A stretch of 64,000 bases of DNA from Oehlia diaphana (taxonomy: Eukaryota; Glomeromycota; Glomeromycetes; Glomerales; Glomeraceae), in assembly GCA_003833135.1 (NCBI GenBank), contig QZLH01000038.1, positions 58,984-122,983 of the forward strand, in the 5' to 3' direction. Made by a program: the position numbers and the translations under genes. This document shows positions 1 through 49,750 of this stretch, in pieces (positions within the stretch are counted from its first letter, which is position 1; every line of letters starts with the position of its first letter). The notes under the pieces are model-generated. The model was not told where the DNA came from. It worked only from the letters and a program-made list of their open reading frames with translations, and did not search any database.

Positions 1-3000
1 GAGATTGAGTAATGGTTAAGTAACGGAGCGACAAGGCTGTTTCCCATACGTTCTTTGGGACTGATTTTAATTTATCGCTAACACCATAAGTTTGAATTGA
101 GGATTGTATATTGTCAGAAGAGATGTTGATTTGATCGGAAACGGTTTTGTCTAATTTAATAGAACCATCGGGTTTTTGATTTTCTACGATCTTCTTGGTT
201 GATTCAGGAGTGGTTATTGATTTAAGATTTACAAGGGTAGAAGATACTGTGTCAGCGGTATGTTGTACGGTATCGGTTATACTTTCGGATGTGGATTTTG
301 CTGTATCGGTAATATATTTACCCCAACTTGATCCCCAACCAGTCAAAGAAGTAGACAAAGAAGGCCATGAAGATTCTTTCTTTTTATTAGAAGCTTTCTC
401 AACTACTACTTTCTCGCAGGATTCTAAAACTTTTTTTATTAATTTTTCATCCTTGATTTGAGTATGCAACCAGGCGAGGGCTTTTTCATTTTGAGGTTTC
501 ACTTTTGATTGTTGTTTTCCTAACACTTTATTGCAATAAGCAATTGTTATAAATGTATTCCATACTTTGGTATCAAATTTTTTGACACGTTCATCAGTAA
601 TACGGACGGAAGATGAAATATTTTCAGTTGTGATTTCTCCAAGTTTTTCGGTAATCTTGTCGGATATTTTTTCATATGAACCTTCTTTATTTTGAATTTC
701 AATGACTTTTGTGATCTCTTCTTCAGTTACAGTTTCTTGAATTTCTTTTACGATTGTTTGTTCCGCTTTTTCTTTGATTACTTTATTGACTGCATGATCG
801 ACAACAACTGCATCGGTTTTTTCTAATAATTCTTTAATTTTTTCATCACTTCCTAATTCGATCTTCAAATATTTTTCTGCTTTTGCAACTTTTTCTTTCA
901 ATTCTGGTGAAGTGTCAGTAGATGATGTTTTTTTGAGGAAGGATAAGGTTATAGCGGTAATGAGTAATTTTTTGTCCTCTGGTGCTTTCGTTCCTTTACC
1001 AATGAAATAAGATTTAATAGATGAAACTAATGATTCATTAGATTCAACATCAAGCGCCTTAGAAACGGTGTCAGGGAGTTCTAAGGATCCATCTTCTTTT
1101 TGAGATGATACTATTTCGTTTGCTTTTTCGGTTGTGGTAGAGCCTTGGATAATGGAAACGGCATCTACCTTTTCTTTTTTGACACTTTGATCAACAATGA
1201 TCTTTTCCGACGTTGTTAATAACTCTTCTACTAATTTTTCATCTTTGAGTTCCCCAATAAGATACATCTTGGCTTTTTCAGATTGTTCTTTATGTTGATC
1301 TTGAGATTGAGAGGTAATGGTTAAGTAACGGAGTGACAAGGCTGTTTCCAATACGTTCTTTGGAACTGATTTTAATTTATCGCTAACACCATAAGTTTGA
1401 ATTGAGGATTGTATATTGTCAGAAGAGATGTTGATTTGATCGGAAACGGTTTTGTCTAATTTAATAGAACCGTCGGGTTTTTGGTTTTCTACGATCTTCT
1501 TGGTTGTTTCAGGAGTAGTTTTTGATTTAAGAATGATCAATGCCGATCCATAACTCTTTTGATTAGAGGTATAAGTCAACACGGAATTGGTAAGAGTTTC
1601 ATTGGAAGAAATTTCAATTTGTTTTTTGATGGCATCATTAAGCTCGAATGATCCGTCCTTTTGTTGTTGTGATGTTGCGACTTCTATGGTTTTAGCATCA
1701 GTCTTTGACTGAATAGCGGACAATTTAGCTCGCTTCTCTTCCTTCTTTTGTATAACCTTATAACTGGTTTTTTCTACAACTATTGTTTCAGTTGATTTTA
1801 AGTTCTCCTTTTCCAACTCAACATCATTAACTTTTTCTTCATTCCAAGTTGATTCGTGTCCTAAAAAAGAAAGAAAAGTTATATAACAAATATGTACTTG
1901 AAATTATTATAAATTCACATTCTTACACTTTTTATATACCTGGTCTAGTACTTTTTTCTTCTGAAGTTGTTGGGAGATTAGACTGAGGTGATGATTTTAT
2001 ATCATCATTTACTATGGATACTCTTTCATCATCATTTTCAGTAAAATCAAATGAAGGTATACTTAAAGTATATCCTAATGATTTGTCAGATTCAGTTTTG
2101 CGTTCTAAAGTAAAAAAAAATAAAATAAAATGTACCATTTTTAAAATTATAAATTCACATCCTTACACTTTTTATATACCTGGTTTAGTGCTTTTTTCTT
2201 TTGAATTTGTTGGGAGATTAGACTGAGGTGATGACTTTATATCACCATTTACTACGGATACACTTTCATCATCATTTTTAGTAAAATCAAATGAAGGTAA
2301 ACTTAAAGTATATCCTAATGATTTGTCAGATTCAGATTCAGATTCAGTTTTGTGTTCTAAAGTAAAAAAATAAATAAATAATAAAATAAAATGTACCATT
2401 TTTAAAATTATTATAAAATTCAAATTTTATATCTTATATACCTATATTTCTAATTAATGAAAAATTTGGCGAAACCTCATCATATTTAAGATGTTTACAT
2501 AAATCCATCATTTCTTTAAATAATTCTGGTAAGTCAGAAGAATCAGGTCTTTTTGATGGATCAGGATCCCAACATTGTTCCATAATTTTAGCATAAAAAT
2601 TTGGTGTTTCTTTAGTAATATCAGGTCTTTGTCCTTTAACAATTTGAATTGCAAGATACTTATCATGAGGACGATCTGAAAATGGAGATTCATTTGAAGT
2701 TAATTCCCACATTATCATACTTAAACTATAAACTTCAGATTTCTTTGTATATGGCTTTTTCTTTAGTACTTCAGGAGCGATATAAGGTAAAACTCCTTGA
2801 ATTTTATCTGAAGCTTTTTATATAAAAATTAAAAATTTTAATTAATCATTTTTAAAATATTGTAAAAATAAAGCAACCTTTTTTTCGAAATTATTTACCT
2901 ATTTCTAGATCAACGGGTGTACAAAGTCCAAAATCACATATTAAAATACTCCTATTTTCGTCTACCAAAACATTTTTACAATGAAAATCCCTATGGATTA

Positions 3001-3731
3001 AGTTCATTTCGTGAATGTGTTTTAAGGCTTTGGAAATATTTATAAGAATCTCTATTCTATCGGCCCAAGTTAATTCTGAAAAAAATTTATTAATATAATT
3101 TCTTAAATCCCCATATTTTGCACGTCTTATTACCATAGCGTATTCATTTCTTCCAGGTACTTTTGTTATTCCATAAAATGGTATAACGCTTTGACTACGA
3201 CATTTATGATGCATTTTAAACTATCAATTGTAACGACAAAAAAAAAAAAATTAAAAAAATAATTAAAAAATTAGTTATTTTTTTTTTTTTCAGTGTGAAC
3301 CTTTTCCTTTTTACCTCGTTTAGTAATTGATCACCAGTATCCTTAATAGATTTTATAGCCAAAGGTATAGTTAAATTCCAAGTTCCACAAAAAATATTTG
3401 AATTTCCACCATTTGTTAAATGGTTTACATTTTCCAAGTAATTATTTGGTATCCATTCAATAAAATCATCACAATATTTTGAATTATTTTGAGTTTCTTT
3501 AATAAATTCATCTAATTTAGAATTTCCAGTTGTATCGATTAATTTAATTTCATATTTATTGACTTGGTTGGTTTGTATGCTACGAGTTGCGGTTACATTG
3601 GACTTATTTTTTTGATTATTTTGTGAAAAATGAAATTGTCTTAAACATATTTGATTTTGACCTGTATAACTTGTTATTATATGATTACAATGGGTACAAA
3701 TAGTAAATTTTGAATCTTCGGATAAATTCAT
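1..3731 (-). CDS. TKL-type protein kinase fused to VIT/vWA C-terminal-like repeats (K1; continues past the left edge)
   Basis: Six exons on the minus strand: 3731-3315, 3220-2899, 2813-2442, 2356-2180, 2104-1940 and 1860 to beyond base 1. The N-terminus has a CTHC pair, then a Gly loop (LTNGGNSNIFCGTWN), the Lys in PLAIKSIKD, HRDFHCKN, DFGLC and an APE-equivalent PYIAPEVL, so all key kinase residues are present. Exons 4 and 5 are tandem copies of one acidic tail exon. The last intron (acceptor at 1861-1862) joins in phase to an open exon of 1860 bases with no stop. It encodes repeats of about 110-150 residues with QKPDGSIKL, QKEDGSLEL and QNKEGSYEK type motifs and W-x-T-x-x-x-L segments, like the C-terminal part of fungal VIT/vWA proteins. 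I checked that exon's frame codon by codon. The fusion is inferred from splice phase. The stop lies outside the window. Confidence 0.72.
1912..2390 (-). repeat. Tandem duplication of a tail exon plus its intron in K1
   Basis: Two copies with a period of about 240 bp (roughly 1912-2150 and 2152-2390). Each contains the same acidic exon (TESDKSLGYTL and SIVNDD/SVVNGD motifs) and the same flanking introns with GTATATAAAAAG donors. The copies differ by scattered substitutions and an extra ES-repeat in exon 4, so duplication took place at the level of a whole exon-intron unit. Related tail exons recur in the decayed kinase locus at 46260-46680. Confidence 0.85.
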
Positions 3732-5319
3732 GATTTTTCTAACGTAATTCGTATATCCAAAGCACCCTTTTTATACTTCGTAACAAAAAACGCCATTTAC
3801 CATATTTGTTATTAAGATTGACGATCAACGTTTAACTATTACTTTTTGGTTCCTATTCAAAAAATCCATAAGTTAACATGATTGACATGATTAATTTGCA
3901 TGTTATGATCTACACTACACTCTACAGTAGATTTTAACATTTTTTTTTGAATTTATGACTTGAGTAACTTATGTAGTTGTGCAGTAGTTAAAGGGCGACG
4001 TGAGGGGAACGAGCGGTAGGCCGAAGCGCTCGGTATGGAGAGATTGGTGGTGCTTGACATCATTCAATTTCAATGTATTTCTATGTATTTAGCCTGTAAT
4101 ATGTTCTCTTTTCACATTTACTGAATAAAGAAATGCGTTTTCACTTGTAAAAAAAAAAAAAAAAAGGAAAAAGAAACTTGAGTAACATTATTATTTTACG
4201 ATTAAAAATTCATACAAATAATAAATTTTGGAATTCATGCCAAGGAAAATACTGTCCTATTTATATATCAGCGATAAAAAACACTGTTTACTATATTCAG
4301 TTGGTTATTGTCATAAGAATACGAAGCTTGTACGATTGTACAATAACTAACTCGATTTGTAAATAGTTAAAATTTAAAATGACATCACTACATCAGCTGG
4401 GGAAAATCCGTGTAGATCATTTTGTATATATCCGACATTTATATTAAACTCAATCATGGCTTGCGAAATTTTTGTATTTAATAGTAAAAAATAGAATCTA
4501 TCCCATCATAAGAAAAGAAGAAAATCCAAATACAGATATAAATAACTACTTTTATTTTGTAAAAATACCTCAATAATAAGATGAGATCTTCATAGTAGTA
4601 CAAGGCCTTACTTTTCATTATGTTGAAAATTCTTGGAAGTTAAAAGTTTTCCTTCTTGATATCATTCTGTTGTACTGGAAATAACATGGTAATGCTCCAA
4701 TGAAAGTTCTTGCAAGTTTGAATTAGCAGAAAATGTGAACACCGATAATGCAGCTTCGATGGTTTCTCGTGGTGAATAGTGCAATATGTCGCGTTCCCAA
4801 AACATGCTATATATATATAAAAGTTAAAAATGGTATTCTAAACCATCATTCCGTCTTTAATTAAATTTGTAGAACAGCCAAAAATACGCACATAATAAGT
4901 ACATAAAGCCTCATACCAATTTTATTTAGGAAATCGGAAATCTTATTAATGTCACTAATTTTTTGTCGTTGTATTTATTATTTATTATGTTTACAGTATT
5001 TTATTGATTCAATTCCAATTTATTATTTTTATATAGTAAAAAGATTTAATTATTTATCATGTTTATCACTATGTTTATAAATATTTAATGTTTTTTAATT
5101 ATTAACTTTAATATTTTGCTTTTTTTATTGGGATATAACAGTCCATTGAAAATACAACTTGGCACAACTTATACAGTGCATGAAAAATAAAAAGTAAAGC
5201 TGCTAAATTAACAGAATATTCGTTGTCAATATGCATTTGAAGATAATATTACAAGAAACACTTTTATGAAATGAAATAATAATAATTTTAAAATATTTTA
5301 TTTAATATTTATATTAATT
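3732..5319. other. Intergenic, AT-rich
   Basis: No supported gene. A short GC-richer patch at about 3990-4070 contains a cgagcg/cgctcg inverted pair and looks like a fragment of a dispersed repeat. A poly-A run lies at 4149-4165. The stretch upstream of 3731 should hold the K1 promoter, but no element is recognisable. Confidence 0.5.
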
Positions 5320-5712
5320 TGCTATTTGATTATAGAGTTAATTTTGCTATTTGATTACAAGGTTAATTTTGCTATTTGATTTACAAGTTAATTTTGCTAT
5401 TTGATTTACAAGTTAATTTTACTATTTGATTTACAAGTTAATTTTGCTATTTGATTTACAAGTTAATTTTGCTATTTGATTTACAAGTTAATTTTGCTAT
5501 TTGATTATAGAGTTAATTTTGCTGTTTGACTACAAAGTTGATTTTTCTATTTGAAACAGAGTTAATTCTGCTAGAGTTAATTCTGCTATTTGATTACAGA
5601 GTTAATTCTGCCATCTGAAAACAGAGTTAATTCTGCCATCTGAAAACAGAGTTAATTCTACAGAGTTAATTCTGCTATTTGATTACAAGTAATTCTGCTA
5701 TTTGATCATTTG
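5320..5712. repeat. Minisatellite, unit about 25 bp
   Basis: About 15 imperfect head-to-tail copies of a unit resembling TTAATTTTGCTATTTGATTA followed by CAAG. The left copies are the most regular; on the right, variants (gttaattctgctatttga, gccatctgaaaacaga) mark older or degenerating copies. No coding frame runs through it. Confidence 0.9.
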
Positions 5713-5850
5713 CAGCATTTTTCTCTATATTTACTTTAATGCTACAAATGTCATAATAGGCATGACTTATTAAACTGATCACAATATGGTTCCACCTTTT
5801 GCAACGTGAAAGGGTCCTTTCTATTTCACGGAGAAAGAATCCATAGTAAA

Positions 5851-6798
5851 TTATTCTAAAGGAACTATGGAAGACTCATTCATTACCAATCCTGACAAAT
5901 TGTAACCAAAAGTATGATTGGTTTCAGGTTGTATATAAGGATAATCTAATGTTGCATAAGTTGAAAAGAATTCCAAGTTGGATGGAATAGGTGACTCCAT
6001 AAGGTCACAATTAGGATATCCTGGTAAATCATAAGTTACAGCATTAAGGTTAGAGTTAGGTTGAATATAAGGATAGTTTAATGTAGAAGGAGTTAAGAAA
6101 GATTCCAAGTTAGATGGATTAGATGTCTCAATTTGGTTATAATTAATATATCCTGGTAAATCACAAGCTGCAGCAGTGAGGTTGGATACAGGTCGGATGT
6201 AAGGAAAATTTAATGTTAAAGGAGTTTCTAAATTGGATGGAATAGATGACTCAAGTTGATTATAATTAGCTGTAGCAATAAAGTTGGTAGTTGTAGGCGA
6301 AAAATTATATTGATCTTCAGTGATATACTGTAATTGAGGATGAAGTTCTAATGAAGTAGATGATGTAATCGACGTTGAAAAAAGGTTAGATTGGATAGGC
6401 AACTTATTTTCTTTAACATTTTTTGCTCCTTTTTGTTGATTTCTCTTTCTAAATCGATATCCTTTATGTTGTTTAGCATGTTTTTTCTTTGCCACTTTTG
6501 CGCCACAGTCAAAAAGATTTTTGACTTCATTTGATTCATTTAGCCAGAGTTTCCCGATTATTCTAAACTTTTTATTTGCTTGCATCTTCTTGTATTTTGG
6601 TTTATTGCCTTCATTTTTCGCATATAAAATAAAGGAATTTAGAGGACGTGGAATATCAGGCCTAGATTTATTCGAGTTCATTAAAAGTTTGTCTCTGTCC
6701 ATAGTAAATGGATAATCTGTATCATACCAAGTTTGTTCAGGGGTTTTAATGTTCAAATTAAGAGAAAAAGTAGGTTTGTTAGGGTCAGGAGGTACCAT
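5851..6798 (-). CDS. HMG-box protein, MATA_HMG type
   Basis: A single-exon gene of 315 residues starting at the ATG complementary to 6796-6798. Residues about 48-118 form an HMG box: IPRPLNSFILYAKNEG, a helix with FRIIGKLWLNES, then the basic AKKKHAKQHKGYRFRKRNQQ end. This is the form typical of the MATA_HMG proteins expanded in arbuscular mycorrhizal fungi and proposed as mating-type-like regulators. It is expected to bind DNA in the nucleus. The C-terminal half (about 165-315) carries three diverged repeats of about 48 residues with LPGY, SNLE and YPYIQP motifs. The assignment is from motifs alone. Which HMG subclass it belongs to, and whether it has any mating role, cannot be judged here. 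Confidence 0.85.
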   Translation of the reverse strand: MVPPDPNKPTFSLNLNIKTPEQTWYDTDYPFTMDRDKLLMNSNKSRPDIPRPLNSFILYAKNEGNKPKYKKMQANKKFRIIGKLWLNESNEVKNLFDCGAKVAKKKHAKQHKGYRFRKRNQQKGAKNVKENKLPIQSNLFSTSITSSTSLELHPQLQYITEDQYNFSPTTTNFIATANYNQLESSIPSNLETPLTLNFPYIRPVSNLTAAACDLPGYINYNQIETSNPSNLESFLTPSTLNYPYIQPNSNLNAVTYDLPGYPNCDLMESPIPSNLEFFSTYATLDYPYIQPETNHTFGYNLSGLVMNESSIVPLE

Positions 6799-7705
6799 TT
6801 CGATACTATAGATGATAAAATTATTATTAATTTTTTCGTGTACTGAAAGCGTATTTCAGATTTTTTTTTTTAAAAGTAGAATAACGAAGATAACTTCCTT
6901 TTTATAAATAAAAATTTTTATGGATTAATTTAATGATTGTATTATTCCGCGGTAAATATCTATTGGCCTTTTTTGTTAAGATTTCTGTTGATTATTTTTG
7001 TCAATTTCCGCTTTCAGTTGAATCATTTTGTCAATATCTTCTGTTGATTATTTTTGTCTTTCAGTTGAATAATCTTTCTGTTGATTATTTTTGTTAATGA
7101 TTTAAATGGTGGAACGTCGATCATAAAAAGCCACACCATATATGTACGTAATCGAAATTTCAATGAAGAAGATCCCCGCTAGCTGACTTTGTAAAATTAA
7201 TTTTATTTATTTTGCCCTTTTATCTTTATTCCGTTTCTAATTTAGTGAAGTGAAAGAAAGGAGTATTGTAGATTCACAATAGGAAAAAAAAAAGTTGTTA
7301 TAAAAAATAGGAAAACCGGAATTTAAGATTAAAATGATTTTTGTAACATGTAAGAAAAAATCACGGAGAAAATTAAATAATTATTAAGTAAGAGATAAAG
7401 AGATTAATCAACAAACACAAATTAATACTCGTGCAAAAATAAGATTTAAAAAATAATAATAATAATTATTTATTGAAAGTTTAAAAAATTTATGATGAAA
7501 GAAAAAAAAAGATTGTGTAAAAGATCATCAGTTACATTTTTTTGCAGATTTTTTTTTTTACCCCTTTTTACTATTTTAACAAATTTAATAACTTTGGGCT
7601 AAATATTTAACCAGAATTTTTGTGGTTTTTGATTGGTTTAAACGATATCGGTCTCTTTTATTATAGTTTTAACAACTAGATATGATATGACTCAGTGTTG
7701 GAATT

Positions 7706-11761: not shown

Positions 11762-14700
11762 ATGAATGAACTAGAAGATCCAGAATATGATACCACTTGT
11801 ACGCAATGTAATCTAAAAATAATAAATTATCCAAATAAACTTTGTAGAAGAAAATTCCTTCCTTCTGCGCAAGTAAATAAACCTCAAGGCGTACAAAAAA
11901 GTAAAATAAACAAACTTTCTAAAGTCAAATTATATTTAGTTAAATTATTTAAGACTAAATTATTTAAAGCTAAATTATTTAAGGCTAAGTCTAAATTACC
12001 TAAAAATGAATTGATTGATGAGAGCAAGACAAGTGGGAATTCTATACTGGACGAATTTATTAAAGAAACTCAACTAAATTCAAAATATTGTGATGATTTT
12101 ATTGAATGGGTTCCACATTCAAATTTAAAATATATAACATATTTAACAAATGGAGGAAATTCAAAAATTTATTTTGGAGCTTGGAATTTATTGTCAAACA
12201 TGTCTTTGACTTCAATAGTTTCAAACCAATTTTCTTTTAAAGTTACTTTAAAAGTCATTAATGATTCTGAAAATATCAATGATCATATCCTAAACGAGGT
12301 AAAGAAAAACGAAATCAAATAAAATAATATATATATATATTAAAATTAATTATTATGATTTTATTTAGCTTAAAGTTCACCATAAATGCCGTAATCCAAG
12401 AGTTATACCTTTCTATGGAATAGCAAAAGCACCTGTAGGAAAGGAATATGCCATGGTAATAAGACATGCAGAGCATGGAGACTTACGAAATTATATTCGT
12501 AAATTTTTTCCAAAATTAACTTGGACTGATAGAGCAAAGATTCTTATTGAACTATCAAAAGCTTTAAATTCAATCCATCAAATGAATTTAGTTCATAAGG
12601 ATTTTCATTGTAAAAATATTTTAGTAGACGAAGATGATAGAATTTTTATAAGTGATTTTGGACTTTGCCAACCAATTGACTCTGAAATAGGTAAAAAATT
12701 AAAGAAAACGATTTTTTATTCATAAACATAATTAATAAAATTATATTTTGTTTTACTAAAAGCTTCGAGTATTCAAGGAGTTTTGCCTTATATCGCTCCC
12801 GAAGTTCTGAGATGTAAACCATATACAAAACAATCAGAAGTGTATAGTTTAAGTATGATAATGTGGGAATTAACTTCGGATAAACCTCCATTTTCAAATA
12901 ATAATCATGACGCAGGTCTTGCGCTTGAAATTCTTGATGAACTGAAACCGCTGAGGCCCGAAATTGTTAAGGGAACACCAGAATTTTATGTTAGCATTAT
13001 GGAACAATGTTGGAGTTCTGAGCCATTAAAAAGACCTGTTGCTTCTCTTTTACCGAAATTATTCGAAGAAATGATAGATCTATGTAAAGTGGCTGATGAT
13101 AATATAGCTTCATCAAAAATTATTTGTTATTCATCATTGTCTGAATCTAATTTTGTAACTAATAATAGTGTTAATACAGGTAAAAATATGAATAATAATT
13201 TGAATGCACTATAACTTAAAATAAATCATTAGTAATATTTTTTTAGGAGATGGTACTAGAGCAACTGATAATCTTAATATGGCACCAACTTATTACCCTA
13301 AGGAAGAAAATACGGTTATGATAAATAATAATAATTCTGTAGATATAGAATTATCACCACAACCTAATTCTGTAACAAGTTTAAATGAAAGTATTATTCA
13401 ACCAGGTACAATATTTATTTTATAGTATAGACATTTAAATGTATATAATTTAAGTTTCATTTTATATTTTAGAATACGGGACCAAAGCGTATGAATATAC
13501 TCTCGAAGGTCAGTATACAGAATTTTTTAAAATACGAAACAAAAGCAAATCATTTAATAATTATATTATTTGATACTAAATATCAAATTTTAAACTTTTG
13601 GTTTATACTGTAGTTCCTAAATGTAAGCGTAATTCGTTATAATATCATATCCGGGTATAATGTATGGTAGAATTAGGCCAATTCTGGCCAATTTTTCCAT
13701 GATCTATATAAAATAACCCGAGCATAATCAATTTTTAAATAGAATATTATACTTAATACTAATTAAACAATCTTTCAATAAAAACAAAATTTTTTTATAT
13801 AACATTTTATAGTTCGTAAGTTTATTTATATATAACTTGTTGCGTAATAATTAATTATTTGCTAATATACCTACTAATTTCAATATTTTAACCTTTTTTA
13901 TATTATATTTCATAGTTGGTAAGCTTATTTACATTATAACTTTATTGTTTATTAATTAAATTATTTGCTAACATAAATACTAACATCAATATTTTAATTT
14001 TTTACATTGCATTTTATAGAAAGTAAGTTTATTTACATTATAACATATTGTTAATAATTAAATTGTTAACGTACCTACTATTTGAACTTTTTTATACTTT
14101 TTTATAGATGGTAAGTATATTTACATTATAACTTATTGTTAATAATTAAATTATTTGCTAATATAACTACTATTTGGACTTTTTATATTACATTTTATAG
14201 GTGGTAAGGTTATTTACATTATAACTTATTGTTTAATAATTAAATTATTTGCTAATATAACTACTATTTTAACTTTTTTACATTACATTTTATAGGTGGT
14301 AAGGTTATTTACATTATAACTTATTGTTTAATAATTAAATTACTTTGCAAATATAATTACCGATTTCAATATTTTAACTTCTTTATATTACATTTTATAG
14401 AATGTATGTTTATTACATTATAACTTCAGTTATTGTTTAATAATTAAATTATTTGCTAACATAAATACTAACATTAATACTTTAACCTTTTTATACTGCA
14501 TTTTATAGGTCGTAAGTTACATTATAACTTTATTGTTTAATAATTAAATTATTTGCTAATATAACTACTCATTCCAATAATTTAACCTTTTTTTATATTA
14601 CATTTCATAGTTGGTAAGCTTATTTACATTATATTGTTTAATAAAAAAGTTATTTGCAAATATAATTACTGATTTCAATATTTTAACTTTTTATATTACA

Positions 14701-17180
14701 TTTTATAGAATGTAAGTTTATTACATAATTTATTGTTTAATAATTAAATTATTTGCTAATATAACTACTAATTTCAATATTTTAACCTTTTTATATTACA
14801 TTTTATAGATTGTAAGTTTATTTACATTATAACTTATTGTTTAATAATTAAATTATTTGCTAACATACCTACTATTTGAACTTTTTTATACAATATTTTA
14901 TAGCTGGTAAGTTTATTTACATTATAACTTATTGTTTAATAATTAAATTATTTGCTAACAATCCTACTATTTGGGCTTTTTTATATTATATTTTATAGCT
15001 GGTATGTTTATTTACATTATAACTTATTGTTTAATAATCAAATTATTTGCTAACATACCTACTATTTGGACTTTTTTATACAATATTTTATAGCTAGTAA
15101 GTTTATTTACATTATAACTTATTGTTTAATAATTAAATTATTTGCTAACAATCCTACTATTTGGACTTTTTTATATAATATTTTATAGCTTGTATGTTTA
15201 TTTACATTATAACTTATTGTTTAATAATTAAATTATTTGCTAACATACCTACTATTTGGACTTTTTTATACAATATTTTAAAGCTGGTAAGTTTATTTAC
15301 ATTATAAATTATTGTTTAATAATTAAGTTATTTGCTAACAATCCTACTATTTGACTTTTTTATATTATATTTTATAGCTTGTATGTTTATTTACATTATA
15401 ACTTATTATTTAATAATCAAATTATTTGCTAACATACTTACTATTTGGACTTTTTATACTATATTTTATAGCTGGTAAGTTATTTACATTATAACTTATT
15501 GTTTAATAGTTAAATTATTTGCTGATATAACTACTAATTTCAATATTTTAACCTTTTATATTATATTTTATAGATTGTAAGTTTATTTACATTATAACTT
15601 ATTGTTTAATAATTAAATTATTTGCCAATAAAACTATTAACATTAATGTTTTAACCTTTATTATATTACATTTTATAGTTGGTAAGCTTATTTACATTAT
15701 AACTTATTGTTTAATAATGAAATTATTTGCTAATATAACTACTAATTTCAACATTTTAACCTTTTTTATATTAATATTACATTATAGAAAGTAAGTTTAT
15801 TTACATTATAACTTATTGTTTAATAATTAAATTATTTGCTAATAAAACTACTAATTTCAATATTTTAACCTTTATCTGTTATTATATTACTTTTATAGTT
15901 TGTAAGTTTATTTACATTATAACTTATTGTTTAATAATTAAATTATTTGCTAATATAACTACTATTTTAACTTTTTTACATTACATTTTATAGGTGGTAA
16001 GGTTATTTACATTATAACTTATTGTTTAATAATTAAATTACTTTGCAAATATAATTACCGATTTCAATATTTTAACTTCTTTATATTACATTTTATAGAA
16101 TGTATGTTTATTACATTATAACTTCAGTTATTGTTTAATAATTAAATTATTTGCTAACATACCTACTATTTGGACTTGTTTATACTATATTTTATAGTTC
16201 GTAAGTTTATTTACATTATAACTTATTGTTTAATAATTAAATTATTTGCTAATAAAACTATTAACATTAATGCTTTAACTTTATTATATTACATCTTATA
16301 GTTAGTAAGTTCATTTATATTATAACTTATTGTTTAATTATTAAATTATTTGCTAACTTAAATACTAATTTCAATATTTTAACCTTTTTATATTACATTT
16401 TATAGGACGTAAGTTTATTTACATAATAACTTATTGTTTAATAATTTAACATAAATACTAATTTCAATATTTTAACCTTTTTATATTACATCTTATAGGT
16501 CGTAAGTTTATTTGCGTTATAACTTATTGTTAATAATTAAATTATTTGCAAAAATATATACTAATATCAATATTATTTTAATTATTTACATTACATTTTA
16601 TAGCTTGTAAGTTTATTTACATTATACTTATTGTTTAATAATTAAATTATTTGCTAATATAAGCAATATTTTAACTCTTTTATACTACACTTTACAGACA
16701 TTGGTAAGTTTATTTACATTATAACTTATTGTTTAATAATTAAATTATTTGCTAACATACCTACTAACATCAATATTATTTTAATTTTTTACATTACATT
16801 TTATAGATGGTAAGTTTATTACATCATAATTTATTATTTAATAATTAGGCTTAATAATTACTATATAAAATAAGTTTTTCCTTAATTCATAAAGGTGACA
16901 ATAATAAATATAATGGAGTAGAAGGTATTTATTTTAATATATTATTTTTTTTTAAAAAAAAAGAAATAATTATAATAATTAAGTAATGTCATTTTATTAT
17001 TAGATTCTAGATATAATACACAAACTTACAAATTTTCTTTGGACGGTAAAGTGATTTATAAGTTAATAATGAAATTATTTAAATTATTAGTCTTTTTTAT
17101 TCTTTCTTTTTTATATAGATTTGAACAAGGCTTATAATGATTTAATTAATAATCGTTCAAGTTTATTGGATATTTCATAA
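11762..17180 (+). CDS. TKL-type protein kinase with a tail encoded by an array of 3-nt microexons (K2)
   Basis: Kinase exons: 11762-12298, 12369-12690 and 12763-13179. Tail exons 13247-13405 and 13473-13508 are followed by 32 predicted microexons between 13614 and 16809, then 16895-16924, 17004-17045 and 17119-17180. The full join is open and gives 569 residues. The N-terminus has CTQC and CRRKF. The Gly loop is LTNGGNSKIYFGAWN, the Lys is in VTLKVIND, the catalytic loop HKDFHCKN is at about residues 255-262, DFGLC at about 275 and PYIAPEVL at about 293-300, so the enzyme looks active. The ATG at 11762 is chosen by alignment with the paralogues. Three-exon kinase domain lengths and phases (0, 1, 1) match K1, K3, K5, K7 and K8. 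Whether the microexons are used, or 13509-16894 is removed as one intron, is not known; both keep the frame. Confidence 0.75.
13509..16894 (+). repeat. Array of intron-like units separated by 3-nt microexons (K2)
   Basis: 32 predicted microexons spaced 88-111 bp apart, after a first gap of 199. Thirty are exactly 3 nt; the others are 13614-13622 (9 nt) and 16698-16703 (6 nt). Starts of the 3-nt exons include 13813, 13916, 14020, 14108, 14201, 14296, 14401, 14509, 14611, 14709, 14809, 14904, 14999, 15094, 15189, 15284, 15378, 15472, 15574, 15679, 15788, 15899, 15994, 16099, 16198, 16302, 16406, 16499, 16604 and 16807. Each unit runs GTAAGTTTATTTACATTATA ... ATTTGCTAA ... TACTAA-like branch site ... 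TTTTAACC ... ACATTTTATAG. The repeat is nearly constant, while the 3 nt between AG and GT take at least 14 values (TTC, TTG, AAA, ATG, GTG, AAT, CTG, CTT, GAC and others). A few donors are GTATG; one acceptor is AAAG. Confidence 0.8.
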
Positions 17181-19042: not shown

Positions 19043-22018
19043 ATGAATGTATTAGAAGATACCAGTTGTATACAATGTAATCAGAAATTAATAAACGATT
19101 CAATTCAATTTTGTAGAAAAAAGTTCCTTTCTTCGCAAATAAATGAATACAGTGAAACTCGTAGTGTAAAAATTAATGAAACAAACATAACTAAAAAGAA
19201 ATTTATTGATAGCAAGACTAGTGGGAATTCTAAATTGGACGAATTTATTAAAGAAACTCAACTAAATTCAAAATATTGCGATGATTTTATTGAATGGATT
19301 CCACGTTCAGATTTAGAAAATATAAAATATTTAACAAATGGAGGAAATTCCAAAGTTTATACTGGAACTTGGAATTTAATATTAAACATATCTTTGGCTT
19401 CAATAGTTTCAAACCAATTATCTTTTAAAGTTGCTTTAAAAGCCATTAATGATTCCGATAACATTAATGATAATATCCTTAACGAGGTAAGAAAAAATAA
19501 AATCAATAGAAATAAAATTTTCCCCTGAAATTAATTATTGTTATTTATTTAGCTTAAAATTCACCATCAATGCCGTAATCCAAGAGTTGTACCATTCTAT
19601 GGAATAACAAAAGCACCTGGAGGAAATGAATACGCCATGGTAATAAGACATGCAAAACATGGAGATCTACGAAATTATATTCGTAAAATTTTTCCAAAAT
19701 CAACTTGGACTTATAGAGCAAAGATTCTTATTGAGCTATCAAAAGCTTTAAATTCAATTCACCAAATGAATCTAGTTCATAAGGATTTTCATTGTAAAAA
19801 TGTTTTAGTAGACGAAAATGATAGAATTTTTATAAGCGATTTTGGACTTTGCCAACCAATTGACTCTGAAATAGGTAAAAATTAAAGAAAAACATTTTTT
19901 TGTTTCATAGCTGAAAATAATTAATAAAATTATATTTTGATTTTCTAAAAGCTTCGGATAGCATTCAAGGAGTTTTGCCTTATATCGCTCCTGAAGTTCT
20001 GAGATGTAAACCATATACAAAACAATCAGAAGTGTATAGTTTAAGTATGATAATGTGGGAATTAATTTCAGACGAACCACCATTTTCAAATAGACAACAT
20101 GATGCAGGTCTTGCGCTTGCAGTTCTTGATGGACTGAGACCCGAAGATATTAAAGGAACGCCCGATTTTTATTCTAATCTTATGAAACAATGTTGGAATT
20201 TTGAACCATTAAAAAGACCTGATGCTTCTCATTTACCGAAATTATTTGAGGAAATGATGGAGCAGTGTAAAATGATTGATGATGATACGATTTCGTCAAA
20301 AATTGCTTTTTGTTCATCATCAACTCAACCTAATTATGTAACAGATTCAAATGAAAATAGTATTCAACCAGGTATATATATAGATATTTAAATGTGTGTA
20401 ATTTAAGTAAATTCTAATTTCATTTTGTATTTTTAGAATATGAAACCAAAGCATATGAATATACTCTTAAAAGTCAGTATAAAATATTTTTTTAAAATAT
20501 GATAAAAGTGTATACTTTAATTATTCAAATAGTAATAATAAATCATTTATCAATCATAACTATTAAATATCAAAACTTTATTAAATTCTGGTTAATAGAT
20601 GATGCTTTACGTAAGTACATTTTATTATTTAATAATTATTATATTTAAAGCAAGTTTACTAACATTATAACTAATTATTAATATATAATTGAATCATTTG
20701 CTAATTGTTGCATAACTTTATTTTGGAATGCAATATAATATTAATACTTTAAGAAAGTCGTAGTAGTAAGTTTATTTAATATTATTTTAATTATTTAATA
20801 ATTAAATCATTTGCCAATTATATTTATTAAACATTAAAATTTTAATCTTTTTTTTTTTTACTACATTTTAAAGAATGTAAGTTATTGCATTATATACTAA
20901 TTAAAACATTTGCTAATTATGAGTACTAAAAATCAATATTTTTAATTGCTTTTTATAAATACATTTATAGTTCGTAAGTTTATTTAAATTACTTGATGAC
21001 TAATGTACTCGATATATGATGTGCTCTCTTAAATTAATTAATTAATTATTTAAATAAAATTACTAACGTCAATATTTTGATTTTTTTTATGCTACATTTT
21101 TGAGAATGTAAGTTTATTTATATTATAGCTTATTTTTTAATAAATTAAATTATTTACTAATTTTCAAAATTTTAACCTTCGGGAAATATTTCACATTATA
21201 ATTTATAGTCGGTAAGTTTATTTATAATATAATTTAATTATCTAACAATTATATTAATCGTTGTTAATAATTATAGAATGTGATGATGATACTAGTAAGT
21301 TTTATTATAATTGAATTATTTACCAAATTATAATTACTAAGGCTTTTAATTTTTGGGATACCTTCGGATTACAATTTATAGTTGGTAAGTTTATTTATAT
21401 TATAATTTAATTATCTAACAATTATATTAATTTTCTGTTGATATAGTAGAATATGAAGAAGAACGTAAGTATTAAATCATTTGCCAAATTATAATTACTT
21501 TTTATAGAAAAATTAGTACATAGTTAACGATATATGTGGTAAGTTTATTTATGTTATAACTTAATTATTTAATGATTAAAACTTGCTTATTTTTTAATCT
21601 AAATTGTTAGTTGAGACAGAAAACCGGTTTGATTTTAATAATTTAAAATGATGACTAACGAAATAAGTATTTATTTATTACATATATTTTATATTAATAA
21701 AAATTTAATTAAAATTTATATAAGCACAAGTATCTCCAGTTCCTTATAAGGATGATATTGTCAACAATAACATATTCAATGAAGAAGAAGGTATAAAATT
21801 TAATAAATTTAATATAACATTTATTTTGAAATAATTAAATATTTAATTAACATAATTTTTATTATTAGATTCTAGATATGTTACTCAAACTTACAAATTT
21901 TCTTTGAACGGTAAAGTGATTTGTAAATTAATGGCATAAAATATTTAAATTATTGATCTTTTTTTTTTTTAATATAGACTTGAACGAGGCTTATAATGAT
22001 TTAACGAATAAAAAATAA
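19043..22018 (+). CDS. TKL-type protein kinase with a short, irregular microexon tail (K3)
   Basis: Kinase exons 19043-19486, 19553-19874 and 19952-20371, then tail exon 20437-20472 (YETKAYEYTLK). After that come small exons such as 20599-20610, 20754-20765, 20874-20876, 20971-20973, 21115-21117, 21209-21211, 21277-21294, 21382-21384, 21447-21464 and 21524-21538, followed by 21725-21790, 21869-21910 and a last exon from 21978. CIQC/CRKKF, the Gly loop, VALKAIND, HKDFHCKN, DFGLC and PYIAPEVL are all present, so the kinase should be active. The final exon stops early (DLNEAYNDLTNKK then stop at 22016-22018) because an insertion shifted the frame relative to K2. A candidate exon at 21611-21626 breaks the frame if included and is left out. 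The tail model is tentative; the kinase part is firm. Confidence 0.7.
20473..21724 (+). repeat. Degenerate microexon array in K3
   Basis: About ten intron-like units of the same family as in K2 (GTAAGTTTATTTA...TTATAG), but irregular in length. Predicted exons are 3, 12, 15 or 18 nt. The units at 21201 and 21375 carry a diverged tail-like sequence (cttcgg...ttacaatttata). It looks either like an older array decaying or like an ancestral one that was not amplified. Confidence 0.6.
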
Positions 22019-27207: not shown

Positions 27208-30200
27208 ATGAATGAATTTGAAGGTTTAGAATATAATAATATTTGTATGCAATGTAATCAAAAAGTGATAAATTATCCAAATCAACTTTGTAGGAGACAA
27301 TTTCTTTCTCCTTTGCGAATAAATGAATATAGTGAAATTCGTAGCGTACAACTTAATGACAAAACAAGTGGAAATTTTAAATTGGATGAATTTATTAATG
27401 AAACTCAATTAAATTCAAAATATTGTGATGATTTTATTGAATTGATTCCACATTCAAATTTAGAAAATGTAAAATATTTAACAAATGGAGGAAATTCCAA
27501 AGTTTATTTTGGAACTTGGAATTTAATGTTAAACATGTCTTTGGCTTCAATAGTTTCAAATCAATTATCTTTTAAAGTTGCTTTAAAAGCCATTAATGAT
27601 TCCGATAACATTAATGATCATATCCTCAACGAGGTAAGAAAAAAATAAAATCTATAGAAAATATATTTTCCCCTGAAATTAATTATTGTTATTTATTTAG
27701 CTTAAAATTCATCATCAATGCCGTGATCCAAGAGTTGTACCATTTTATGGAATAACAAAAGCACCTAAAGGAAATGAATATGCCATGGTAATAAGACATG
27801 CAAAACATGGAGATCTACGAAATTATATTTGTAAATTTTTTTCAAAATTAACTTGGACCGATAGAGTAAAGATTCTTATTGAGCTTTCAAAAGCTTTAAA
27901 TTCTATTCATCAAATGAATTTACTTCATAAGGATTTTCATTGTAAAAATATTTTAGTAGACGAAGGTGATAGAATTTTTATAAGCGATTTTGGACTTTGT
28001 CAACCAATTGACTCTGAAATAGGTAAAAATTAAAGAAAAACAATTTTTTGTTTCATAAAATAATTAATAAAATTATATTTTATTTTTCTAAAAGCTTCGG
28101 ATAACATTCAAGGAGTTTTACCTTATATCGCTCCTGAAGTTCTAACATGTAAACCATATACAAAACAATCGGAAGTATATAGTTTAAGCATGATAATGTG
28201 GGAGTTAGCTTCAAAGAGGCCTCCATTTTCAAATAATTATAATCATGATATAGGACTTGCACTTGCAATTCTTGATGGATTGAGACCTGAAATTGTTGAA
28301 GGGACACCAGATTTTTACGCTGATTTTATGAGACAATGTTGGAATTCTAATCCATTAGAAAGACCTGATGTCTCTCTTTTACCAAAATTATTTGAAGAAA
28401 TGTTGGAACTATGTAAAATGGTTGATAATAATACTATTTTATCAAAAGTGCAATCTAGTTTTGTAATTAATAATAGTGATAAACCAGGTATAAATTAAAG
28501 ATTTGAATGCATTATAATTAAAGCAAATATTTTTATTAATTTTTAGTATTCTTTTAGGATATGATACTGATACTAGAGCATTTGATTTAAGTTTAAATAT
28601 GGCACCAACAAATTACTCTAATAAAGGAAAAGAAATTATGATAAATATGAATAATTCTGTAGATGATATGGAATTATCACCTCAACTTAATTCTGCAACA
28701 AATTCATATGAGAACAGATTTCAACCAAGTATATATATATATTGTGCTTATTGAGTATAGACACTTTAACGTATGTAATACTAATTTTGTTTTGCATTTT
28801 AGAATATGAGACCAAAGCATATGAATATACTCTTAAAGGTTAGTATATTAGAATTTTAAATATGAAAACAAAAAAGCATACCATATAATAATTATATTAT
28901 TTTGCTACTAAACTTCTGGTTTATAGCTCCTTTAGGTAAGTATATTATAATTGTTTAATTAATACATTAACCTAATGATCTGTTTAATAAAAAAAACTTT
29001 TTTTCATACGATATTTTATAGTTCGTAAGTTTATTTATATTATAGCTTATTGTTTAATAATTAAATCATTTACTAATATAACTACTAACATTTTTGTACT
29101 ATATTTTAAAGAACGTAAGTTATTTTTATTATAACTTATTATTTAATTACAACATTATTTGGTTAACATAATTATTAACATCAATATTTTAACATTTTTA
29201 TATTAGAACGTAAGCTTTATTTATATTATAACTATTTAATTATTACATCATTTGCTGATATAACTACTAATATTATTATACTAACTTTTTTTTTAATAGA
29301 ACGTAAGTTTATTTACATTATAACTTATTATTTAATAATTAAATCATTACTAATCATAATTACTAACTTTCTTGTAATACATTTTAAAGAATGTAAGTTT
29401 ATTTATATTATAGTTTATTATTTAATAATTAAAATTATTTGCTAATTATAATTATTTTAAACATCTGGTTTACAGTTCCTACAATCGCAAGTAAGTATAC
29501 TATAATTTAATATAATCAAAAATCGAAACTTTTACCTCGCTCATATTTAATCTTATTATTTAATAATCTGCTAATAATAAACTTTGCCTTTTTTTTATAT
29601 TATATTCTATAGGCCGTAAGTTTTTTTTTATTGTTTAACAATTAAATTATTCCAACATACCTACTAACATCAATATTTTAACCTATATTTTATAGAAAGT
29701 AAGTTTATTTACATTAGAAATTATTTGCTGACTTAACTACTAACATCAATATTTTAACTTTTTTTTTAATATTTTGTAGTTTGTAAGTTTATTTACATGA
29801 TTATAGCTTATTGTTTAATAATTTACTAATATAACTACTAATTTCAATATTTTACCTTTTTTTATACTATATTTTATAGGTGGTAAGTTTTTTACATTAT
29901 AACTTTATTATTGCTTACCAATTAAATTATTTGCTAATATAACTATTAAATATCTTAACTTTTATATTGCATTTTATAGCTCGTAAGTTTTTTATATTAT
30001 TACTTATTGTTCAATAATTAAATTATTTGCTAATATAACTGCTAACATTTTTGTACTATATTATTTTAAAGAACGTAAGTTATTTTTATTATACCTTATT
30101 ATTTAATAATAACATTTATTATAACTTAATTATTTAATAATTAAATCATTTGCTGATATAACTACTAATATTATTATTCTTAATTTTTTTTTAATAGAAC

Positions 30201-32852
30201 GTGAGTTTATTTACATTATAACTTATTATTTAATAATTAAATCAAAACTAATCATAATTACTAACTTTCTTGTAATACATTTTAAAGAATGTAAGTTTAT
30301 TTATATTATAATTTATTATTTAATAATTAAATTATTTGCTAATATAACTGCTAATATCAATATTTTAACTTTTTTTTACTACATTTTATAGCTTGTAAGT
30401 TTATTTACATTATAGCTTATTGTTTAATAATTAAATTATTTCTAATATACCTACTACCTTTATTATATTACATTTCATAGCTGGTAAAGTTTATTTACAT
30501 TATAACTTATTGTCTAATAATTTGCTAATATAACTACTAATTTCAATATTTTAACCTTTTTTATACTACATTTTATAGGTGGTAAGTTTATTGCAATATA
30601 ACTTATTGTTTAACAATTAAATTATTCGATAACATATCTATTACCTTTTTATATTACATTTTATAGTTCGTAAGTTTTTTATATTATTACTTATTGTTTA
30701 ATAATTAAGTTATTTGCTAATATAACTGCTAACATTTTTGTGCTATATTTTAAAGAACGTAAGTTATTTTTATTATAACTTATTATTTAATAATAACATT
30801 TATTATAACTTAATTATTTAATAATTAAATCATTTGCTGGTATAACTACTAATATTATTATTCTAAATTTTTTTTTTAATAGCACGTGAGTTTATTTACA
30901 TTATAAATTATTATTTGATAATTAAATCAATGCTAATCATAATTACTAACTTTCTTGTAATACATTTTATAGCTCGTAAGTTTTTTATATTATTACTTAT
31001 TGTTTAATAATTAAATTACTATTTGCTAATATAACTGCTAATATCAATATTTTGACTTTTTTTTACTACATTTTAATAGCTTGTAAGTTTATTTACATTA
31101 TAGCTTATTGTTTAATAATTAAATTATTTGTTAATATACCTACTACCTTTATTATATTACATTTTATAGTTGGTAAAGTTTATTTACATTAACTTATTGT
31201 TTGATAATTTGCTAATATAATTACTAATTTCAATATTTTAACCTTTTTTATATTATATTTTATAGGTGGTAAGTTTATTGCATCATAACTTATTGTTTAA
31301 CAATTAAATTATTTGATAACATACCTATTACCTTTTTATATTACATTTTATAGCTCGTAAGTTTTTTATATTATAACTTATTGTTTAATAATTAATTATT
31401 TGCTAATATAACGCTAATTTCAATATTTTAACCTTTTTTATACTATATTTTATAGGTGGTGAGTTTATTTACATTATAACTTCAGTTATTGCTTAACAAT
31501 TAAATTATTTGCTAATATAACTATTAAATATCTAAACCTTTTATATTACATTTTATAGCTCGTAAGTTTTTTATATTATAAATAATTAAACTATTTGCTA
31601 AAATAACTACTAACATCAATATTTTAACATTTATATACTATATTTAAAAGAATGTAAGTCTATTTACATTATAACTTAATTATTTAATTATTAAATTTAT
31701 TTGCTATAGTATTTACTAAATACCAAAAACTCCATTTTTGAAATATATTTTTTATATTATATTTTATAGTTGGTAAGTTTATTTAATACATTATAACTTA
31801 TTATTTAATAATTAATTAATTTGCTAATTATATCCTAAAATTTTGGTTTATAGTAGTTCCTTCAAGTAAGTAAATTAGAATTTAATAAATATCTCTTAAT
31901 ATAACAAAAATCAAAACATTTAACCTATATTTAATAAAAAACTTCTTTTATACTAATTCAAAGGGCGTAAGTTTATTTACATTATAATTTAGTTGTTGAA
32001 TAATTAAAGTTGTCTATTAATTGTTATTGAATAATTATTTTAAATTTATTAGAAAAAAGATTTAGTAAGTTAGATTTTTATAATTAATTTCACGAAATAT
32101 CAAAACTTTATTAATTTTTGAAATATTTAATATACAATTTAAAATAGGTGATGATACTAATGGTGAGATTATCTTTATTATAACTTAATTAATGATTAAA
32201 ACTAATTGCTAATTTAATTTGCTAATAATTTTTTAGATTTTGGCAAGTTAGACTTACTAATATTTAATATATTTATTAAATTGTAACTAATTATTAATTA
32301 TTATTTTAAATTTGAAATAGACGATGATAATAGTAGGTTCATTTATTATTATATCTTAATTATTTAATAATTAAAGTTTACATAATTTTTTTTTAATTTA
32401 TTTTAAATTGTTAGATAAGAAGCAGAAAACTGGTTTGGATTTTAATATTTAAAATTATTTGATATGATGACCAAATATTATTTTATGAAAAAAAGTATTT
32501 GTTAATGGCATAATGTTTTATTTTTCATAAAGGTGGTAATGATAACAATAATAGATATAATGAAAAAGAAGGTATATGTTTTAATATAATAAATTTTCTT
32601 AAAAAAGCTGTGAATAATTGAATAATCAAGTAACATCATTTTTTATCATTAGATCCTAGATATATTACACAAACATATAAATTTTCTTTGGGCAGTAAGT
32701 GATTTATAAATTAATTATCAAAATTATTTAAATCATTGATCTATTTTTTCTTTATCACAGCTTTAAATGAGGTTTATAATGATTTAATTAATAATCGTTC
32801 AAGACTATTGGATATTTCATCACATAATTATTTTGCGAAATTTCGAATTTAA
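27208..32852 (+). CDS. TKL-type protein kinase with the longest microexon-array tail (K5)
   Basis: Kinase exons 27208-27633, 27701-28022 and 28095-28487, then tail exons 28558-28728 and 28803-28838. These are followed by 37 predicted microexons of 3-18 nt from 28927 to 32432, then 32533-32571, 32653-32694 and 32761-32852. The full join is open: 567 residues, almost the same as K2. Motifs present are CMQC/CRRQF, LTNGGNSKVYFGTWN, VALKAIND, HKDFHCKN, DFGLC and PYIAPEVL. Two joins use unusual donors (GCAAGT at 32243, GTGAG at several). The last exon extends about ten residues beyond the K2 end. The kinase part is firm; microexon use is inferred from splice signals and frame only. Confidence 0.75.
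28839..32532 (+). repeat. Array of intron-like units separated by microexons (K5)
   Basis: 37 predicted microexons, 29 of exactly 3 nt (for example at 29032, 29112, 29207, 29300, 29390, 29613, 29696, 29780, 29880, 29980, 30072, 30198, 30288, 30392, 30481, 30579, 30667, 30756, 30883, 30973, 31080, 31170, 31266, 31354, 31456, 31559, 31651, 31770 and 31974). The others are 28927-28935, 29476-29490, 31857-31865, 32053-32064, 32148-32162, 32237-32242, 32321-32332 and 32415-32432. Spacing in the main block is 80-137 bp. Each unit has GTAAG or GTGAG, a branch-site-like TACTAA or CTAAC and a TATAG, TAAAG or AATAG acceptor. Blocks of several units are repeated (for example around 30050-30300 and 30735-30960). 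The AA-starting exons all follow exons ending in C, so no TAA arises. Confidence 0.8.
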
Positions 32853-48409: not shown

Positions 48410-49750
48410 TTTCATTGATTAGATTTTATATTTGTTTAAGTATTACGGCCCTGCCACAAGGGACTTCCTAAGAAGCGCACTATGCTCCTCCCATTAAAAT
48501 TACGCATAGCACCATGCCGTACCACAACCAACCAGCCCTACTGTGAGACTACAACAAAAGCTGGTACTCACAGGCTTACAANNNNNNNNNNNNNNNNNNN
48601 NNNNNNNNNNNNNNNNNNNNNNNNNNNNNNNNNNNNNNNNNNNNNNNNNNNNNNNNNNNNNNNNNNNNNNNNNNNNNNNNNNNNNNNNNNNNNNNNNNNN
48701 NNNNNNNNNNNNNNNNNNNNNNNNNNNNNNNNNNNNNNNNNNNNNNNNNNNNNNNNNNNNNNNNNNNNNNNNNNNNNNNNNNNNNNNNNNNNNNNNNNNN
48801 NNNNNNNNNNNNNNNNNNNNNNNNNNNNNNNNNNNNNNNNNNNNNNNNNNNNNNNNNNNNNNNNNNNNNNNNNNNNNNNNNNNNNNNNNNNNNNNNNNNN
48901 NNNNNNNATTTTTTCATTGATTAGATTTTATATTTGTTTAAGTATTACGGCCCTGCCACAAGGGACTTCCTAAGAAGCGCACTATGCTCCTCCCATGAAA
49001 ATTACGCATAGCACCATGCCGTACCACAACCAACCAGCCCTACTGTGAGACTACAACAAAAGCTGGTACTCACAGGCTTACAAAGTAAGCACGCTATGCT
49101 CCCGCCCATGCATAACATCATGCTGCTCCAATAAAAATACCCAAAGCTAAAAATAATAAAGAAATAAAAAAAATCATAATAAAAAATAAAAAATAACTAA
49201 AAAATAACAAAGAAAGTACACTCACCTTCGGTCCTATCGCAGGACTGCAGCAGAAGCTGGTACCCACGAGCTTAACAAAAAGTAAGCGACTATGCTCCAA
49301 CCCTCGCATAGTACTATACCGTTCCAAAAGACTCCCAGCCAGCCCTACTGTGAGACTGCAGAAAATCTGGTACCCACAGGCTTACAAAGTAAGCACGCTA
49401 TGCTCCCACCCATGCATAACATCATGCTGCTCCAATAAAAATACCCAAAGCTAAAAAAATAAAGAAATAAAAAAAATCATAATAAAAAATAAAAAATAAC
49501 GATAACTAAAAAATAACAAAGAAAGTACACTCACCTTCGGTCCTATCGCAGGACTGCAGCAGAAGCTGGTACCCACGAGCTTACCAAAAAGTAAGCGACT
49601 ATGCTCCAACCCTCGCATAGTACTATACCGTTCCAAAAACTCCCAACCAGCTCTACTGTGAGACTGCAGAAATCTGGTACTCACAGGCTTACAAAGTAAG
49701 CACGCTATGCTCCCACCCTCGCATAACATCATGCTGCTCCAGCAAAAATA
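48410..49750. repeat. GC-richer tandem repeat, unit about 300 bp, with assembly gap
   Basis: gtaagcacgctatgctccc recurs at about 49085, 49387 and 49693, giving a period of about 300-306 bp. Each unit holds two diverged halves: one with tgtgagact-(g/a)ca...ctggta(c)ccacaggctta, the other with gcaggactgcagcagaagct and ctatgctccaaccctcgcat. The block 48410-48581 before the gap is nearly identical to 48908-49081 after it, so the gap likely hides more copies. Composition is clearly different from the surrounding AT-rich DNA. Frames within it are not coding. Confidence 0.85.
48582..48907. other. Assembly gap (326 N)
   Basis: Lies inside the tandem repeat, between two nearly identical copies, as expected for a collapsed array. 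Confidence 0.99.

Follow-up and report, generated by a model that had tools for sequence, protein, structure and literature searches.

Arrays of predicted one-codon microexons in kinase-like genes of the fungus Oehlia diaphana

The micro-exon genes (MEGs) of Schistosoma mansoni encode secreted proteins and are described as having 10–20 short exons per gene, mostly of 15 bp, with introns of 0.1 to ~5 kb (PMC10526429). The bicycle genes of aphids, which are putative insect effectors, contain ~17 exons per gene on average and megacycle contains >100 microexons (PMC9168663). Isolated 1-nt exons that are needed for frame and were confirmed by RNA are reported for Fusarium CYP621A (PMC12940212) and for plant APC11 and VPS55 (PMC8831610). 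Here, we analysed a 64,000-nt stretch of the glomeromycotan fungus Oehlia diaphana (assembly GCA_003833135.1, contig QZLH01000038.1, positions 58,984 to 122,983 of the forward strand; hereafter the window), in which the kinase-like gene K2 carries an array of predicted microexons, most of which are only 3 nt long.

Like MEGs, the arrays described here string together a large number of very short exons whose lengths are mostly divisible by three, and they lie in variable genes with which automatic annotation copes poorly (PMC10526429); in ten arrays, 337 of 357 automatic exon calls were 3 nt. They differ in that the exons are 3 nt rather than 15 bp, with up to 78 in a row, and the introns are short (mean 94.9 nt, cf. 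0.1 to ~5 kb) and form a ~95-nt tandem repeat in kinase-like genes. Bicycle and megacycle genes share with the arrays an unusually large number of small exons, rapid evolution, and the placement of introns: nearly all internal bicycle exons start at codon position 2 (PMC9168663), and introns were phase 1 throughout our arrays. Bicycle exons are longer, however, and neither 3-nt exons nor an intron–exon tandem repeat is mentioned for them in the available text (PMC9168663). As in the Fusarium and plant genes, frame here would depend on a predicted 1-nt exon; unlike those isolated exons, it closes an array of 3-nt exons, and did so in 13 of 15 related loci. A literature search of titles and abstract openings, including few subscription papers, found no arrays of consecutive 3-nt exons and no microexons in Glomeromycotina. 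We regard the arrays as the far end of known short-exon-rich gene types, and one intron per codon is an arrangement that, if confirmed by RNA, might warrant a separate class.

K2 spans 11762–17180 of the window and, when spliced in silico, gave a single open frame of 569 codons (Table 1). A preliminary description of the window had proposed 32 successive intron-like units within 13509–16894, separated by exonic pieces that were 3 nt in 30 cases and 6 and 9 nt in the others (105 nt in total), with phase 1 on both sides. The counts and coordinates were right, and in-silico splicing bore out the phase: the last exon before the array ends ...EYTLE plus a phase-1 G, and both exons that flank the array are phase 1. 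With all pieces included, 13473–16924 would give 171 nt with the linker VPKFLENGGECLEYSAATSASDFEICEFLRRPYIDG, compared to 66 nt if all 32 were skipped. Array introns were 85–108 nt long with one exception of 190 nt, and a tandem repeat with a period of 95 and 29.8 copies covered 13884–16847. The splice signals that had been assigned to every unit were recovered in part. GTAAG (27) or GTATG (5) donors followed all 32 pieces, but the first donor of the array, at 13509, is GTCAGT; the supposed TATAG-type acceptors appeared as ATAG in 29 of 32 cases and as GTAG, AAAG and ACAG in one case each; and a loose branch-site motif (CTAAY/CTGAY/TTAAY) lay 12–70 nt 5′ of the acceptor in 33 of 33 introns, which is weak evidence given AT-rich DNA. 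The 3-nt pieces took 14 distinct values, the minimum that had been proposed. The exonic part had also been described as the most variable part of each unit; this was so for exon positions 1 and 3 (entropy of 1.99 and 1.89 bits over 28 units with 30 nt on each side, cf. a flanking intron mean of 0.66), while position 2, the third base of the phase-1 codon, reached only 0.75 bits. At positions 1, 3, 2 and flanks, respectively, the values were 1.95, 1.93, 1.10 and 0.93 bits for three pooled arrays, A1–A3 (K2 itself, the neighbouring copy A2, and A3 on contig C631), and 1.55, 1.80, 1.34 and 1.04 bits for the array C268.

The genome (108.8 Mb, 1672 contigs) was searched with a strict two-unit pattern (ATAG-NNN-GTAAGT, 75–105 nt, TAG-NNN-GTAAGT), which matched 728 times (305 forward, 423 reverse); over the whole genome the reversed pattern, a pattern with 4-nt/4-nt exons and one with 3-nt/4-nt exons each matched 0 times. 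Fourteen arrays were selected because they resembled those of the window, matched the strict pattern, or belonged to relatives of the window kinases. A ten-array set comprised K2 (A1) and A2, both in the window but the latter unmentioned in the preliminary description, C631 (A3), C268, C681, C52, C17, C92, C46 and C1374, and a later set comprised C238, C56, C123 and C76. A1–A3 lie C-terminal to the kinase domain and the remaining parsed arrays N-terminal to it. C268 was the longest array, its 78 three-nt exons being accompanied by a single exon of 1 nt; those of C681 and C52 were short fragments at the ends of contigs. Contigs L034 (C681), L035 (C52) and L046 (C470) were observed to terminate within or near arrays, so the repeats may disrupt assembly and the number of arrays may be an underestimate. 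No chain of at least 8 units was found in L032 or L033.

For the ten arrays, exon lengths of 1–18 nt were weighted equally by the parser, and AG and GT (or GCAAGT) were obligatory; because exon calling demands both, their presence is no evidence of conservation. Apart from the 3-nt exons, 11 calls were multiples of three between 6 and 15 nt, 6 were 1 nt, and 3 were doubtful (8, 17 and 18 nt), which were traced to an ambiguous donor and to insertions. Introns of <150 nt (n = 334) had an SD of 11.6 nt and mod-3 residues of 122, 90 and 122, such that exon length was nearly fixed while intron length varied over all residues. All further counts for this set were made on a hand-corrected list, from which the 17-nt call in C92 and the 18-nt call in C268, both within supposed insertions, were dropped; the 8-nt call in C46 was changed to a 3-nt exon, the 12-nt call of A2 at 31854 was changed to 9 nt at 31857, the final A2 call was taken as an ordinary exon, and the first C1374 unit was omitted. 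The four later arrays were parsed automatically with zero corrections. Of the 168 exons called, 139 had the 3-nt length; the other 29 comprised five of 1 nt, nine further non-multiples of three and fifteen longer multiples, and some of these lay outside the arrays. Only adjacent 3-nt exons with an intron of <150 nt were counted as joins in this set (118).

In phase 1, each codon is made up of the last base of one microexon and the first two bases of the next, ~95 nt on. Were the pieces spliced and read as protein, no T-ending piece could be followed by one that starts with AA, AG or GA. Not one of 337 adjacent joins in the ten arrays created a phase-1 stop (such a start followed 0 of 92 T-ending pieces and 66 of 245 others; Fisher P = 4e-11). 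Stops did occur in the control pairings, namely 14 in 327 for pieces two apart (P = 0.19), 15 for pieces three apart (P = 0.41) and 16 in reversed order (P = 0.43), and the other phases gave 56 (phase 2) and 3 (phase 0). Shuffling the 3-nt pieces within arrays (20,000 shuffles) gave a mean of 18.6 stops and never fewer than 7, compared to 0 observed; an earlier six-array version of this test gave P = 5e-5. When each distinct neighbour pair was counted once per array, which allows for block duplication, there were 0 stops in 284 pairs (null mean 14.5, minimum 5). The four later arrays showed the same pattern, with 0 of 118 at adjacent joins (P = 1.2e-4) and 6 of 114 two apart (P = 0.64), giving 0 of 455 adjacent joins for all 14 arrays combined. 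The central proposal of the preliminary description, that K2 holds a series of phase-1, one-codon microexons which, if spliced, extend the protein tail, is strongly supported, and such arrays are a genome-wide feature.

These counts bear on combinatorial alternative splicing, in which units would be skipped in many patterns to yield isoforms, and they made this earlier suggestion improbable. All 3-nt units are symmetric and their skipping would be frame-neutral, the donors of C268 differ in strength (GTAATT, GTACAT and GTAGTT among them), and a 3-bp exon of Drosophila hth, reported to be alternatively spliced, offers a precedent (PMC7392893). Stop avoidance was nevertheless restricted to full in-order joins, joins that skip one unit being unprotected (14/327 and 6/114), and the splice sites of K2 are uniform (27 GTAAG and 5 GTATG donors).

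Order also mattered for codon usage. With 955 codons from ordinary exons of three array genes as the reference, cross-intron codons of the ten arrays fitted codon usage better in the real than in the shuffled order (z = 5.96; z = 4.2 when stops were scored as average), and their third positions were T in 58% and C in 4%, compared to 48% and 5% in ordinary exons. Five of the ten arrays gave values <0.02 when taken singly: K2 (0.018), C268, C17, C92 and C46. The ends of the arrays were conserved as well. A 1-nt exon with a GTAAG donor, fitting the frame, followed the last 3-nt exon in the 13 of 15 N-terminal loci mentioned above (A in 12, G in 1); the codon formed across it specifies E at 11 loci and R and D at one each, and leads into, e.g. 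FGKSGN, YGKSGN or FRRSGD. The search pattern itself required a fitting downstream motif, and this motif-dependent pattern did not find the structure in C56 or C1374. Of the seven loci whose array start is visible, six gave [AD][LF][ND]DW when their first units were read by hand (C268, C17, C92, C238, C56 and C123, the last assuming the G of the preceding exon); in the seventh, C1374, the first units are absent. A1–A3 open with their 9-nt exons (Table 1) followed by TTC. A slow-splicing brake, through which the array would delay or limit kinase expression with the coded residues being incidental, predicts neither the order-dependent codon fit nor the conserved end motifs and is very unlikely to explain the arrays, although braking could still be a side effect. 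In favour of a brake, 33 introns within 3.4 kb should cost time, and the 14 parsed arrays sit in kinase-like genes, several of which were selected for kinase kinship.

It is highly improbable that the K2 array is one 3.4-kb intron that retains internal splice-like motifs from the duplication of an intron, with the microexons never included. Dropping all 32 pieces preserves the frame of K2 and, since the units are tandem repeats, their motifs could persist by descent; however, stop avoidance confined to adjacent in-order joins lacks a cause without joining and translation. The C268 gene speaks to the same question, as it gave 516 open codons in silico through its 78 three-nt exons and its 1-nt exon, and joining the flanking exons without the array broke the frame and led to early stops. 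The 1-nt exon alone kept the frame, so that skipping of the 3-nt exons only would be compatible with it.

Two public gene models of Rhizophagus diaphanus include parts of such arrays. One of them, P0177, shares 100% identity with an array gene over 46% of the query; a stretch of 64 residues in it agrees at all 64 with the C268 microexons taken in order, where shuffled strings averaged 37.6 and reached at most 42. P0172 agrees in the same way with C238 at 35 of 35 residues (shuffled mean 22.2, maximum 26). Both were taken as gene-finder output that agrees on the splice sites and not as transcript evidence. A phase 0 reading, in which each microexon is one whole codon, is used by these two models and meets few stop triplets (3 in the ten arrays, 0 of 139 pieces in the later four), but it is barely credible: the upstream exons, whose frame agrees by eye with that of public Rhizophagus models such as P0123 and P0217, reach the array in phase 1; this reading runs into stop triplets in C46 and C1374; and it cannot give rise to the order-dependent codon fit.

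Overall, the arrays very probably consist of true spliceosomal introns between one-codon exons, joined in order and translated as a fast-evolving kinase linker. The sequence itself shows the unit structure and the frame, an avoidance of stops across introns, a fit to codon usage, conservation at the array ends, rapid turnover between paralogues, and selection on what the joined pieces encode. Several observations weigh against this interpretation. The within-exon control was uneven, with T-ending pieces starting AA, AG or GA in 9 of 91 cases compared to 54 of 246 others (P = 0.007); triplet composition has a structure of its own, which is far weaker than the effect at adjacent joins. Taken singly, only three of ten arrays (C268, C92 and C46) gave P < 0.05 in the stop test, with K2 at 0.089; codon fit was not <0.02 in the other five arrays, C681 being slightly below its null; and the ten-array list was corrected by hand before both counts were made. 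Some units have damaged signals (AT for AG in C17, merged introns in C631). P0177 leaves out 14 of the 78 units and P0172 omits 5 of 40, both models being in a different frame, and words from residues 1–160 of the C268 protein alone retrieved no homologue at E 1e-3. Finally, up to 79 tiny exons per transcript would require very accurate splicing.

If the pieces are spliced and translated, as we infer, each repeat unit would consist of a ~95-nt intron and three coding nucleotides and, with all introns in phase 1, every codon would be completed across an intron. The K2-type linker would lie between the kinase domain and a C-terminal motif, and that of the other type would be on the N-terminal side of the domain. 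Since one intron plus one codon makes up each copy of the tandem repeat, the gain, loss or exchange of units would add, remove or swap single codons in frame, and base changes within a 3-nt piece would alter residues, such that the linker would change quickly with its splice sites left intact. The introns would presumably be removed one after another, as both sides of a 3-nt exon could hardly be occupied by two spliceosomes at once. Recursive splicing also removes a long stretch stepwise, where an acceptor meets a donor, and leaves no nucleotides behind; each step here would differ in leaving three. Full inclusion of all units is the likely product, since unit-skipping joins were unprotected from stops. 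Linker diversity would presumably be of value, and our guess is that the linker diversifies kinase regulation between copies. About evenly balanced, in our judgement, is the broader proposition that a protein segment encoded one codon per exon and assembled in up to ~80 steps, in which repeat recombination edits single residues in frame, constitutes a dedicated hypervariability device with hundreds of units in a kinase family.

K2 and the other array genes are kinase-like by sequence; K2 matched Rhizophagus proteins bearing Pfam PF07714 and PF00069. Its top matches listed came from R. irregularis, R. clarus and R. diaphanus, the closest among them being from R. irregularis (85% identity over 86% of the query) and R. 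diaphanus P0008 reaching only 62%. Homologues P0011, P0014 and P0020 (R. irregularis, R. clarus) have K2-like C-terminal endings and, at the position of the K2 linker, a linker rich in proline that is flanked by ETKAYEYSL and PRYNTQTY. P0001 ends ...EYTLEVPTSKCIII, and P0003 continues past an EYTLE-like sequence with residues resembling the next intron of K2; we read this as a sign that R. irregularis may have arrays here that annotation missed. Diversification of the tail between copies, a role raised in the preliminary description, was supported. The K2 and C631 genes were 93.7% identical over 1,420 aligned pre-array coding bases and 91.9% identical over 271 ordinary intron bases, and their microexon strings were no more alike than shuffled ones (longest common subsequence 8, cf. 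8.5 shuffled); the other pairs gave 10 cf. 8.3 (A1–A2) and 7 cf. 7.4 (A2–A3). When joined, the A2 array is Q/P-rich (11 Q and 6 P in 44 residues), in contrast to A1, with 2 P and 0 Q among 36. A search for paralogues with the N-terminal segment in one ordinary exon covered five loci, four of which showed an array end with a 1-nt exon; at C822, no array was seen in the 1.5 kb examined.

To our knowledge, the arrays, if spliced as inferred, are at the extreme of known exon size and number. Dozens of consecutive exons would then not hold even one uninterrupted codon, which would make testable the minimum exon length and the role of exon bodies in recognition, the accuracy and order of intron removal where an exon cannot have a spliceosome on each side, and the way in which intron–exon repeats drive protein change. 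The arrays also suggest that public Rhizophagus kinase models, e.g. P0001, P0172 and P0177, are shortened or misread at arrays, which bears on signalling work in these plant symbionts (arbuscular mycorrhizal fungi).

Table 1. Positions of K2 exons, microexons and related features in the window.
Feature	Position	Strand	Details
K2 pre-array exons	11762-12298, 12369-12690, 12763-13179, 13247-13405, 13473-13508	+	in-silico splicing
K2 array	13509-16894	+	33 introns, 32 microexons (30 of 3 nt, one of 6 nt, one of 9 nt; 105 nt coding)
K2 9-nt microexon TTCCTAAAT	13614-13622	+	encodes (V)PK; equivalents are CTCCTTTAG (A2) and TTCCTACAA (A3)
K2 3-nt microexons 1-10 (starts)	13813, 13916, 14020, 14108, 14201, 14296, 14401, 14509, 14611, 14709	+	
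K2 3-nt microexons 11-20 (starts)	14809, 14904, 14999, 15094, 15189, 15284, 15378, 15472, 15574, 15679	+	
K2 3-nt microexons 21-29 (starts)	15788, 15899, 15994, 16099, 16198, 16302, 16406, 16499, 16604	+	29 in total in 13813-16606
K2 6-nt microexon ACATTG	16698-16703	+	
K2 final 3-nt microexon ATG	16807-16809	+	
K2 post-array exons	16895-16924, 17004-17045, 17119-17180 (TAA end)	+	read ...DSRYNTQTYKFSLDDLNKAYNDLINNRS...; in-silico splicing
A7, smaller and looser unit group in another kinase copy	20754-21480	+	
A2 array, neighbouring kinase copy	28839-32147	+	29 x 3 nt, two of 9, one of 12, one of 15
Paralogue with equivalent linker within one ordinary exon	36839-37885	+	linker after EYETKAYEYSLE; open ~160 codons, then frame lost
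Kinase tail with small exons of 36, 9, 9 and 3 nt	57118-57440	+	milder form of the architecture; by eye

Further irregularities were observed within individual arrays. In C17 (L041), at ~2190, AT replaces the acceptor AG in one unit (AATATAT CTC GTAAG), and in C631 (L031, minus strand) two introns of ~185 nt (~5311–5495 and ~6082–6268) look like two units fused after loss of a microexon or donor. Transposon-like insertions were seen within array introns in a minus-strand stretch of C268 (~7440–7610), in L041 (~3165–3390) and in the second intron of K2 (13623–13812), the last being common, by eye, to C631. When joined, the microexons of C46 (L039, minus strand, ~1271–5967) read FWISFLSLVVLGILALMAFFW, a hydrophobic run resembling a membrane segment. 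Elsewhere in the window, the ordinary linker exon of the paralogue in Table 1 holds 99- and 210-bp tandem repeats, and tandem repeats outside the kinase arrays lie at 5314–5705 and 49030–49756, with periods of 25 and 309.

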